Part shown: positions 16,862 to 57,613 of the stretch, one piece after another
Position numbering within the stretch: position 1 is the first letter of the stretch
Layout: the number at the start of each line of letters is the position of its first letter
Assembly (NCBI RefSeq): GCF_035984545.1
Contig: NZ_JAXCHP010000001.1
Location: 3,968,001 to 4,032,000, forward strand
Source: Cryobacterium sp. GrIS_2_6
GTDB lineage: Bacteria > Actinomycetota > Actinomycetes > Actinomycetales > Microbacteriaceae
Length of the DNA stretch: 64,000 bases
Direction of reading: 5' to 3'
Translations under genes and position numbers: made by a program
Notes under the pieces: model-generated
Told to the model about the DNA's origin: nothing
Databases searched by the model: none
The model's input: the letters and a program-made list of their open reading frames with translations, nothing else

Positions 16862-16909
16862 TGTCCAAACGATATCAAGCCGTGGCCGCCGCGCCCGGAA
16901 CGCCCGAGT

Positions 16910-16936
16910 CTGGCACTCACGTTGCGTGAGTGCCAG
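16910..16936 (+). promoter_or_regulatory. CIRCE operator (HrcA site) of groES
   Basis: CTGGCACTC-N9-GAGTGCCAG is a perfect inverted repeat matching the CIRCE consensus with the correct 9-bp spacer. A second half-site, TTAGCACTC, lies at 16956-16964 with a degenerate partner. HrcA binding here would hold groES down until heat stress. Confidence 0.9.
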
Positions 16937-16950
16937 AAGCGCCCTAAACT
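16922..16950 (+). promoter_or_regulatory. groES promoter embedded in CIRCE
   Basis: TTGCGT at 16922-16927 lies in the spacer of the CIRCE element, and TAAACT at 16945-16950 follows after exactly 17 bp. HrcA bound at CIRCE would cover the -35 box. Confidence 0.65.
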
Positions 16951-20863: not shown

Positions 20864-20915
20864 GCGCCGGTTTCGGCAGCCCGCCGTTGCGGTAGCGGGC
20901 TGCGCAGACGGGCGC
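20864..20915. repeat. Short (52-bp) variant of the GC-rich palindromic element
   Basis: The left arm begins GCGCCGGTTTCGGCAGCC and the right arm reverse-complements to GCGCCCGTCTGCGCAGCC. The arms match the 58-bp elements at 33676, 33903 and 35176, but the centre is 6 bp shorter. It lies between the convergent binding-protein and livF genes. Confidence 0.6.
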
Positions 20916-33554: not shown

Positions 33555-33593
33555 GGCGGATGCCGGGCGCATGCCGTGCGCCCGGCATCCGCC
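33555..33593. repeat. Perfect 17-bp hairpin, left boundary of the accessory interval
   Basis: GGCGGATGCCGGGCGCA at 33555-33571 pairs perfectly with 33577-33593 over a 5-nt loop. It lies 20 bp after the glpD stop and could terminate that gene. Its core is repeated almost exactly at 35339-35373 on the far side of the next gene. Confidence 0.75.
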
Positions 33594-33675
33594 TCGGCTG
33601 TGTCGCCTCCTCGCCCGCCGGTGCCCGCGCCGGTTTCGGCTCGTCGCGCCGGTGTGTGTGTTCGCGCTCGCGTCC

Positions 33676-33733
33676 GCGCCCATTTCGGCAGCCTGCGCCC
33701 GCGGTTTCGGGTGCGGCCTGCCGAAACGGGCGC
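33676..33733. repeat. 58-bp palindromic element, copy 1
   Basis: Left arm GCGCCCATTTCGGCAGCC, a 23-bp centre beginning TGCGCCCGCGG, and a right arm whose reverse complement is GCGCCCGTTTCGGCAGG. The two arms differ at only one position over the first 15. Confidence 0.75.
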
Positions 33734-33861
33734 GGGCGCGGCTGGCGGATGTCGGGCGCGCCAGCGTCGTCGGGGGAAGTCCGCGTAGTTCGAGCGTGCC
33801 CGTGTGCCCGCGCAGCGCTACTGACCTTCTGCTCGCGCCCGTCCGGCATCCGCTCGCGTCC

Positions 33862-33885
33862 GCGCCCATTTCGGCAGCCTGCGCC
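33862..33885. repeat. Partial copy of the 58-bp element (left arm only)
   Basis: The first 24 bp, starting GCGCCCATTTCGGCAGCC, are identical to copy 1. The rest diverges into GCGCCGGTTTG. Confidence 0.6.
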
Positions 33886-33902
33886 GGTTTGTGTTCGCGC
33901 CC

Positions 33903-33960
33903 GTGCCTATTTCGGCAGCCCGCGCCCGCCGTTTCGGGTGCGGCCCGCGCAAATGGGCGC
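33903..33960. repeat. 58-bp palindromic element, copy 2
   Basis: Left arm GTGCCTATTTCGGCAGCC, centre CGCGCCCGCCGTTTCGGG, right arm reverse complement GCGCCCATTTGCGCGGG. Spacing of arms and centre (18-23-17) is identical to copy 1. The right arm uses the alternative end sequence GCGCGGG. Confidence 0.75.
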
Positions 33961-34043
33961 GGCGGTAGTTGGCGGATGCCGCCGCGCCGGCGCTCGCGAC
34001 CGGCCCGCGCTCGCGACCGCGCTCGCGCCGTCGTACCGGGCTG

Positions 34044-35027
34044 TCACCGCGCCTGCGGAACACCACGTGCGGTGAGGAATCGGCCGAAGACGGAGGGGAC
34101 CTTGAGTAGGTCCCAATCCCAGCGAGAGACCGTCGGACCGCAGGCGCGCACCCGGTCTTCGCGTCGCTTTTCGTCCATGATGACCTCGACCGTCGTGCGT
34201 CCCTTGGTGAATTCCTCTTTGACGTATTTGCCGAAACCGTCGAACTCGCCGACCTTCGAGATTTTGCGCCAGAAGAAGTCGACGAAGGCGATGAAGCCGG
34301 CTTCGTCGTCGAAGCGCACCTGCAGTTCCGGCACGAGGAAGCCCAACATGAATATCAGCGCGCGGCTCACGGATTCGCCCGCTGAACCCGATTCGGAGCT
34401 GGTGAAGTCGACCGCCCGGAATGCCGCGGACCGACCGATCACACGTGCACGGCGGGGAAGCCCGTCGAGGGCGGTCTCGAGTTCCTCCCGGGTCGCCAGG
34501 GCCGTGCCGTGTCGCGGTTTGTGGATCGCCCTGTCGACGATCGCGACGGCGGCAGGGAAGGAAACCACGCGAGCGAGTGCGACGGCGGTGTCAGCCGGGG
34601 CAGTGACGAGGAGGCCGTCGTGTTCGACTATGGAGACCGGTCCGTCCTGGAACCGCCGGATCGTGCCGTGTTTCGACCGGCCACCGCTTGCCGTAGCCGT
34701 CAGGACCTCGATTCCCGCCGGCCAGCGGCCCACGACCGGGAGGTCCCAGATCGCGGCCGCGGAGTGGTGCGAGAAGACGACCGGCGCCTCGCTCATCGCG
34801 GCCAGCGCGCGAACGCGGAGCAGGTATTGCTTCTCCGGCTTGAGCAGCCTCCATTCGACGGTGAGCGTGTACGCGCCCCACCGCAGCCGAATGAGGTGGC
34901 CGCGCTCGATCTCGGAGCGCAGTTCGCGCTCCAGGCCGACCGCCCGCGCATCGCGGCTGAGGAGTATCCCGTCCGGGCGGGCGATGGCGACGAGGAGGGA
35001 GAGGGGCGTCACGGCCGAGATTGACAT
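34044..35027 (-). CDS. AbiEi-like antitoxin N-domain fused to a nuclease-fold-like C-domain
   Basis: A 327-residue protein from the ATG at 35027 (a GTG at 35042 would add five residues). Residues 1-60 resemble the winged-helix AbiEi domain (IARPDGILLSRDARAVGLERELRSEIERGHLIRLRWGAYTL), followed by SHHSAAAIWDLP. The C-terminal part has FVDFFWRKISKVGEFDGFGKY, with an acidic pattern E-x-D then K, and EVIMDEKRREDRVRACG-type residues, similar to DUF559/Vsr-like PD-(D/E)XK nucleases attached to such proteins in actinobacteria. Aromatic and Lys content is higher and GC lower than in neighbours (for example GGTGAATTCCTCTTTGACG), a hint of transfer. No AbiEii toxin partner is adjacent. Function is inferred only. 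Confidence 0.72.
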   Translation of the reverse strand: MSISAVTPLSLLVAIARPDGILLSRDARAVGLERELRSEIERGHLIRLRWGAYTLTVEWRLLKPEKQYLLRVRALAAMSEAPVVFSHHSAAAIWDLPVVGRWPAGIEVLTATASGGRSKHGTIRRFQDGPVSIVEHDGLLVTAPADTAVALARVVSFPAAVAIVDRAIHKPRHGTALATREELETALDGLPRRARVIGRSAAFRAVDFTSSESGSAGESVSRALIFMLGFLVPELQVRFDDEAGFIAFVDFFWRKISKVGEFDGFGKYVKEEFTKGRTTVEVIMDEKRREDRVRACGPTVSRWDWDLLKVPSVFGRFLTARGVPQAR

Positions 35028-35175
35028 GTGCCGAGGTTCCACCTCAGAGGCCGCACCCGAGGGCGCGAGCTCCAGGACTGTGCAGAAAATCCCCGTCGGG
35101 AGCCCGGTTGAGGAGAGCCCTGCCAGCCTCCCGTCGCCGTCGCCGCGGCGTCCGCGCCGCCGCTCCCGGGCGCCC

Positions 35176-35233
35176 GCGCCGGTTTGCGCGGGCCGCGCCT
35201 GCCGTTTCGGGGGCGGCTAGCCGAAACCGGCGC
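35176..35233. repeat. 58-bp palindromic element, copy 3
   Basis: Left arm GCGCCGGTTTGCGCGGGC, centre CGCGCCTGCCGTTTCGGG, right arm reverse complement GCGCCGGTTTCGGCTAG. It has the same 18-23-17 layout as copies 1 and 2, with the two arm types swapped relative to copy 2. Confidence 0.75.
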
Positions 35234-35338: not shown

Positions 35339-35373
35339 CGGATGCCGGGCGCACGTCGTGCGCCCGGCATCCG
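35339..35373. repeat. Perfect 16-bp hairpin, right boundary of the accessory interval
   Basis: CGGATGCCGGGCGCAC at 35339-35354 pairs perfectly with 35358-35373 over a 3-nt loop. It shares the core CGGATGCCGGGCGCA with the hairpin at 33555, differing in the loop. Confidence 0.75.
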
Positions 35374-57555: not shown

Positions 57556-57613
57556 GCGCCAGTTGCGCCGCTCCGCGCCAGGCATGCCAGGCGCGCAACG
57601 GCGCAACTGGCGC
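57556..57613. repeat. 58-bp palindrome between convergent genes (probable family member)
   Basis: Perfect 16-bp arms (CGCGCCAGTTGCGCCG at 57555-57570, complement at 57599-57614) enclose a smaller palindrome around GGCATGCC. Length is 58 bp counted from the first GCGCC, and the centre begins CGCGCC, as in the elements at 33676, 33903 and 35176. The arm sequence is only loosely similar. Confidence 0.65.

Follow-up and report, generated by a model that had tools for sequence, protein, structure and literature searches.

Three copies of a 58-bp palindrome lie close together in Cryobacterium sp. GrIS_2_6, two of them flanking a single gene, and the question raised by this locus is which enzyme, if any, works with such a repeat. 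The locus was analyzed within a stretch of 64,000 nucleotides, termed the window; coordinates of up to five digits refer to the window unless another scope is given. With a probability of roughly 60%, we favor a two-part repeat system in which palindromes of fixed length are paired with the gene that they enclose, whose predicted product combines an AbiEi-type winged-helix (wHTH) domain with a Vsr-like nuclease domain. Such a system would resemble REPIN/RAYT pairs while using an unrelated enzyme. The features concerned are as follows.

33676 to 33733, minus strand (set by the AAACSG loop): palindrome copy 1, 58 bp, 26-6-26
33903 to 33960, minus strand: palindrome copy 2, 58 bp, on the 3' side of the nuclease-like gene
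35176 to 35233, minus strand: palindrome copy 3, 58 bp, on the 5' side of the nuclease-like gene
34044 to 35042, minus strand: nuclease-like gene, 332 amino acids, with an AbiEi-type winged helix at the N terminus and a predicted Vsr/DUF559-like nuclease at the C terminus of its product; proposed palindrome partner
33627 to 33639, plus strand: isolated half-unit GCGCCGGTTTCGG
33862 to 33880, plus strand: isolated left-arm half-unit
20864 to 20915, no strand: shortened 52-bp variant (genome coordinates G000:C1:3988864-3988915)
57556 to 57613, no strand: GCGCC-tipped 58-bp palindrome with a different inner sequence
33555 to 33593, no strand: GGATGCC hairpin, left boundary of the block
35339 to 35373, no strand: GGATGCC hairpin, right boundary of the block

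Anatomy and distribution of the 58-bp palindrome

The three copies named in the original prediction were confirmed in the sequence at 58 bp each, with a consensus that starts with GCGCC and ends with GGCGC. An 18-23-17 layout had been proposed for them; the fixed length of 58 bp stood, while the division into arms and center gave way to a single imperfect hairpin, which describes the copies better and has 26 positions per arm and a 6-nucleotide loop of AAACSG or its complement. Watson-Crick pairs are formed at 22, 19, and 20 of the 26 arm positions in copies 1, 2, and 3, respectively. Three first-order Markov shuffles of the 64-kb window contained one, three, and zero places with at least 18 pairs (maximum of 18), and the real window contains six more unrelated places with 18 to 19 pairs; thus, shared sequence, and not pairing alone, singles out copy 2. 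Of two further relatives that had been listed, the 52-bp variant was recovered by a covariance model (E = 8.7e-7), whereas the element at 57556, a 58-bp palindrome with 23 of 26 positions paired, is absent from the model matches. Stretches of GCGGATGCC/GGCATCCGC adjoin several elements. Elsewhere in the window, a 29-bp inverted repeat, TCTGGCACTCACGTTGCGTGAGTGCCAGA, is present at 16909 to 16937 and, we presume, resembles the CIRCE/HrcA operator. No Rfam family reached its gathering score in the window, and sub-threshold microRNA and sRNA matches within 2.1 kb were taken as chance.

The covariance model was built from 24 copies of the 58-mer and scored 150 of 10,900 first-look candidates from the GrIS_2_6 genome (G000). 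At a threshold of E <= 1 it gave 67 rows representing 34 places, 33 of them matched on both strands and one on a single strand. Within the genus, 40 of 57 genomes harbored a match at E <= 0.01, in agreement with the amplified, REP-like palindrome that had been predicted, although copy number was very uneven: model rows with both strands counted numbered 65 in G000, 73 in C. breve (G008), 50 in C. algoricola (G002), and 33 in G049, with 12 to 22 in seven others and 0 to 6 in the remainder. Among 299 genomes of the family, 15 had matches at E <= 1e-4, distributed over 8 of 85 genera including Cryobacterium. A strict pattern run over GTDB species genomes found 19 stretches, 18 of which are from Cryobacterium; the 19th, from a Lentisphaerae MAG, was taken as chance, the palindrome not being seen by eye. 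The covariance search bore out many 58-bp copies, mostly intergenic, but not the compensatory arm changes expected to accompany them. Paired cells amounted to 84.1%, compared with 84.2% after shuffling, and changes on both sides affected 5 pairs, compared with 5.8; each arm varies independently, and the idea that the arms are matched alternatives was not supported.

Comparison with related species was possible for 18 of the 34 places, and at 16 of these an alignment with one or more relatives runs across the element, a degree of sharing that is overstated because the relatives' loci were mostly chosen for holding elements; the spanned copy at genome position 152535 is probably a repeat-to-repeat match. 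In locus L100 of C. glucosi, the 58-mer at 157261 is missing and the region of 156369 is occupied by other DNA. Opposite each of the pairs at 3166230/3166395 and 115440/115577, C. algoricola has one copy only. In L100, the junction of one near-empty site has GCGC in common, which could be a target-site duplication but is explained equally well by a deletion. Counting against a repeat-enzyme system, no clear target-site duplication and no excision product were found in the material compared. Several 58-mers carry a one-sided tail in which the right arm is directly repeated at 41-bp intervals (L001-L011, e.g., L004:4034-4251).

Gene contexts were assigned using a home-made ORF caller. The 58-mers lie between convergent ORFs at 18 of 34 places, compared with 37 of 144 background gaps; the others are in tandem (10) or divergent (3) gaps or inside called ORFs (3), so that 31 of 34 are outside, and the background comprises a further 83 tandem and 24 divergent gaps. 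This bias, together with the position of many 61-bp palindromes (described below) 4 to 30 bp from called ORF ends, would be expected if the repeats were operators and bidirectional terminators, with an AbiEi-like protein autoregulating through the copy on its 5' side and the other copies being kept as gene-end terminators. AbiEi proteins are described, in the part of the source available, as repressing their own promoters via inverted repeats (PMC7319586). We consider this explanation unlikely. No T-tract follows the 24 inspected copies of the 58-mer, and it leaves unexplained the presence of copies on both sides of the gene and their left/right likeness, the fixed lengths of 58 and 61 bp held by different sequences, and the joint differences of gene and palindromes between sister species. 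A terminator role on top of the two-part system is possible.

A nuclease-like gene enclosed by matching palindromes

The original prediction placed the mobilizing enzyme outside the window. This is probably wrong, as copies 2 and 3 enclose the nuclease-like gene at 34044 to 35042, whose homologues frequently have matching palindromes around them; its position makes it a candidate for that enzyme. The RAYT or other Y1 transposase that had been suggested was not found: a search of the GrIS_2_6 genome with Y1_Tnp (PF01797) gave no match at E <= 0.001, whereas 5 of 14 control genomes did match. Mobilization of a REP/BIME element by a RAYT (Y1/HUH) transposase is thus very improbable here and would require that a RAYT has since been lost, although the elements do look alike in being inverted pairs scattered between genes and in part clustered in tandem.

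The window protein had no Pfam or NCBIfam match, and a sequence search of solved structures using it returned none. PADLOC identified AbiEi in its N-terminal part (E = 1.6e-9), and AbiEi_4 matched 23 of 64 family members at E <= 0.01. Using a structure model with a pLDDT of 90.2, the top Foldseek match was the AbiEi antitoxin 6y8q (E = 1.5e-4) and the third was Rv2827c (E = 9.1e-4). The C-terminal domain is predicted to be a Vsr/DUF559-like PD-(D/E)XK nuclease. In an alignment of 64 of 73 proteins (nine were excluded by length), E223, D255, E266, and D268 were invariant, which we take to be the active-site residues of a PD-(D/E)XK nuclease of the Vsr/DUF559 type. Foldseek matches to Vsr (1cw0, E = 0.27, probability of 0.90; 1vsr, E = 0.38, probability of 0.85) and to the homing-endonuclease domain 3r3p (E = 0.81, probability of 0.54) were weak and stood among unrelated folds with similar E-values. 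The DUF559 cut-off was passed by one paralogue only, L214, which also matched the MTES_1575 family (PF18741) at 31.8 bits, under the cut-off of 38.2. The wHTH is the least conserved part of the protein, with a mean identity of 0.52 among orthologues (n = 26) and 0.32 among paralogues (n = 38), compared with 0.70 and 0.53, respectively, in the nuclease part. Scanning of four neighboring ORFs (E <= 1e-10) identified no toxin such as the AbiEii nucleotidyltransferase that adjoins AbiEi in AbiE systems; these were IMPDH-like, alpha-glycerophosphate oxidase-like, a 175-amino-acid ORF without a match, and a Na/H exchanger.

Homologues of the window protein were identified at E <= 1e-5 in 54 of 57 genomes of the genus, with four rows in GrIS_2_6. 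For analysis of their flanks, 73 loci were taken, comprising 33 returned by the search and 40 obtained by place (the next 20 listed rows and 20 hand-picked at rough intervals). Palindromes of at least 50 bp within 350 bp of the gene were found on both sides at 49 loci, on one side at 19, and on neither at 5, i.e., on at least one side at 68 of 73. Among 173 control ORFs of at least 300 amino acids, which passed a third-position G+C filter and came from unselected stretches of G000 and G042, none had palindromes on both sides, with 26 having one on the left and 28 on the right. Loci with palindromes on both sides made up 22 of 30 in the group of L211 and L216-L244, mostly glpD-side orthologues, and 27 of 43 others. 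The figure of 49 of 73 is conservative, as the 350-bp windows miss some two-sided loci (e.g., L240 and L279) and three loci lack a full flank. A test that makes no use of palindromes gave a comparable picture, in that the 350-bp left and right flanks matched each other at a score of at least 20 at 49 of the 70 family loci whose flanks were complete, whereas the highest score among the 173 controls was 18. The loci are related and hence are not independent trials, the paralogues with unrelated palindromes being the stronger part of this evidence, and the tip motif, the 350-bp window, the score cut-offs, and the 19-bp offset test described below were all chosen after viewing the sequences.

Palindromes differ between paralogues. 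Left/right similarity had a median of 0.65 within a locus (n = 49), compared with 0.16 between loci, and a palindrome's own partner ranked first at 22 of 49 loci and second or third at 23 more (top three, 45 of 49); the partner is often not first because close orthologues compete. Across 2278 pairs, palindrome similarity between loci was 0.16-0.17 at 35 to 45% protein identity and rose to 0.72 at 80% identity or more; for proteins 25 to 45% identical it was at background. The 70- to 74-bp family of the L212 paralogue gave nine arm matches, compared with one in the control, and with so few copies it is evident that not every palindrome family has been amplified. A further paralogue, L213/L215 (G000:C1:3814399-3815285), is split over two reading frames and has no palindromes, as if decayed.

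The palindromes follow rules of length and motif spacing. At 31 glpD-side loci, 47 of 70 palindromes have symmetric G[CT][GA]CC tips at a length of exactly 58 bp, while five tip matches fell elsewhere between 44 and 79 bp, and the inside of these palindromes differs between species. Palindromes with CGCGA tips, which occur with three inner sequences (G000, G008, G002, and G042), usually measure exactly 61 bp, but lengths of 63 and 69 bp were also seen. Taking one palindrome per locus, a motif in the left half was repeated at an offset of 19 bp in 30 of 68 loci, compared with never more than one of the 68 at any of 23 other offsets and 20 of 6,800 shuffled arms. With the best palindrome per locus, the repeat was present in 41 of 68 (14 of 27 orthologues and 27 of 41 paralogues). 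In other genera it was found in 10 of 24 palindromes, and any other offset from 8 to 29 bp in at most two. A common layout is therefore two motifs per arm, mirrored, giving four sites.

The 61-bp family and differences between sister species

A paralogue in GrIS_2_6 (match at 3157147-3157746) is enclosed by two members of a 61-bp family, whose arm has 62 matches in this genome and none in the control; these matches form 30 elements of 61 bp, with two arms left unpaired. Twenty-nine copies were read, and their 22-bp arms are near-constant, with 1.9% of sites off consensus, a value on which the selection of copies by arm match bears. The center is 17 nucleotides in every copy and highly variable, with a mean entropy of 1.22 bits, compared with 0.11 in the arms, and a pairwise identity of 0.49, compared with 0.51 expected from column composition. 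Twelve of the 30 elements are in convergent gaps, 9 in tandem gaps, 2 inside ORFs, and 7 at locus edges. The variable centers of these 30 places (e.g., 3184800-3184860 in L350 and 3167819-3167879 in L085) could be used as a natural barcode of copying.

At the corresponding locus of C. breve and C. algoricola the paralogous gene is present, but its 61-bp palindromes are of another sequence, beginning CGCGAGAGTACG on the left and with a pair of related copies on the right. The protein sequences also diverge: between GrIS_2_6 and C. breve, 29 of 62 residues are identical in the wHTH, 57 of 118 in the middle, and 92 of 124 in the nuclease part. Agreement between C. breve and C. algoricola is 97 to 98%, and nucleotide alignments around the locus are mostly at 81 to 96%. 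Gene and palindromes thus differ together at this locus. However, the sisters with CGCGAGAG-type paralogue palindromes also hold well-kept CGCGAAAG-type palindromes (3 in 140 kb and 5 in 120 kb), so that a given type of gene does not strictly go with one type of palindrome. No CGCGAGAG-type palindrome was found in 400 kb of unselected GrIS_2_6 sequence.

Individual sites also vary in content. Where GrIS_2_6 has 61-mers at 3184800, 3192750, and 3152052, one or both sisters carry another palindrome, and at 3159378 C. breve has the same type and C. algoricola a decayed copy. The 17-nucleotide center of the copy at 3184800 is identical to that of the C. algoricola copy at the orthologue of 3167819, where C. 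breve has the same center with an 8-nucleotide insert; at site 3184800 itself, both sisters hold the other palindrome type. Judging from these sequences, the shared center seems to reflect copying from site to site, in a single case. A further palindrome family, beginning AATTCGACGGAGAT, occupies the same intergenic places in L198, L207, L208, and the C. breve orthologue of 3152052.

The window block is bounded by two nearly identical GGATGCC hairpins. In G016 and C. algoricola the whole block is missing and one such hairpin is present where GrIS_2_6 has two, as if the block had been lost or gained between them. Both genomes lack the glpD-side gene yet have kept many 58-mers. This would fit a degenerate mobile element, i.e., a former insertion sequence with inverted ends whose solitary palindromes are MITE-like relics on which the protein no longer acts, as would the inverted repeats of about 65 to 80 bp that flank the gene in another family (L299, L301, L304-L306, and L312-L314). 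We regard such decay as somewhat less likely even than the operator and terminator explanation, since the nuclease has kept its acidic residues in all 64 aligned sequences, the 61-mer arms are so little diverged, subject to the selection noted above, and palindrome likeness tracks protein identity.

A putative repeat-enzyme pair and its relation to known systems

In the two-part system that we favor, the first part would be the fixed-length palindromes (58 bp for the glpD-side group), with recognition motifs often doubled 19 bp apart in each arm and mirrored, and the second a chromosomal gene between two copies, encoding an AbiEi-type DNA-binding domain joined to a Vsr-like PD-(D/E)XK nuclease. 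The wHTH domain, as a multimer spanning the dyad, would bind the motifs, and the nuclease would nick or cut at the bound palindrome; through repair or strand transfer, palindromes would then be copied to further sites at gene ends or replace palindromes already present elsewhere. As a consequence, a gene would change together with its palindromes. Several observations weigh against this system: 19 of the 73 loci have a palindrome on one side only and 5 have none, 58-mers persist in G016 and C. algoricola in the absence of the glpD-side gene, the sisters mix palindrome types, most of the 58-mers that could be compared are shared with a relative, and the L212 family has hardly been amplified. 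To our knowledge, REP-like palindromes with a known partner are all tied to one superfamily, the Y1 tyrosine transposases. If the proposed pairing is true, a structurally unrelated partner would mean that repeat-enzyme pairs arose more than once, and the large family of uncharacterized AbiEi/DUF559-like genes would gain a possible function. The constant arms and variable center of the 61-mers would also allow copying to be traced in sequenced strains without experiment.

A literature search, which left preprints and most subscription papers outside its scope, yielded no work that connects palindromic repeats to DUF559, AbiEi, or Vsr proteins, and the pairing looks like an undescribed one. The available parts of two articles describe REPIN/RAYT systems as inverted pairs in which the ends are conserved and the spacer less so, together with single, distinct chromosomal genes that a cognate repeat adjoins (PMC3116915, PMC3733652); the conserved-ends layout and the cognate repeat beside the gene are shared here. 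The enzyme, in contrast, is a predicted AbiEi-wHTH and Vsr-like nuclease and not Y1/HUH, the arms contain the 19-bp motif repeat, and, as far as the tips seen show, GCGCC or CGCGA stands where REPIN/RAYT has a GTAG or CGTC tag at one end. The proposed system is therefore REPIN/RAYT-like in its working yet not a member, as the defining Y1 enzyme has no match in the genome. TIRtrons, which are TIR-flanked RAYT relatives, likewise have the gene inside inverted repeats, and part of these repeats belong to repeat families according to the available part of the source (PMC3733652), but their enzyme fold is unrelated.

Likeness to the AbiE type IV toxin-antitoxin systems (AbiEi antitoxin and Rv2827c) is confined to the N-terminal domain; here the C-terminal half is a predicted nuclease, the scanned neighbors are not toxins, and the repeats are on both sides of the gene and dispersed. 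From the part of the source available, AbiEi binds two 23-bp inverted repeats and Rv2827c binds four, which makes a four-site palindrome a plausible target (PMC7319586). The predicted C-terminal fold is shared, at the weak E-values given above, with the homing endonuclease I-Bth0305I (3r3p) and the Vsr repair nuclease (1cw0 and 1vsr), but here the gene is outside its putative target and there are many putative targets per genome. The sub-cut-off match of L214 points to the Vsr-family REase domain of MTES_1575, which is described as part of a very long multidomain protein with HEPN; palindromes are not mentioned in the available part of that description (PMC3710099).

Using the 64-protein alignment as a query, homologues were identified in 256 of 394 genomes sampled across the class. 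Outside the genus, the left and right flanks matched each other above the 99th percentile of 570 between-locus pairs at 16 of 27 returned loci, and above all 570 at 13 of 27; this background leaves out pairs inside one over-represented family, whose neighbors are orthologous. With the window protein as the sole query, tblastn matched a single record among 72,556 from plasmids and none among 50,697 from phages. A wider form of the proposal, which we put forward tentatively and hold to be doubtful as it stands, is that these proteins are palindrome-homing nucleases throughout the actinomycetes, which would recognize four motifs at a fixed length, cut, be repaired from copies of their own family, and overwrite rivals at gene-end sites, the 17-nucleotide center of the 61-mers recording the copying. 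The same sites do hold different palindromes in sister genomes, but the mixed palindrome types of the sisters loosen the coupling and lower the odds of this wider form. In the over-represented family, the repeats flanking the gene resemble insertion sequence ends, and most of them contain AATGATCA.
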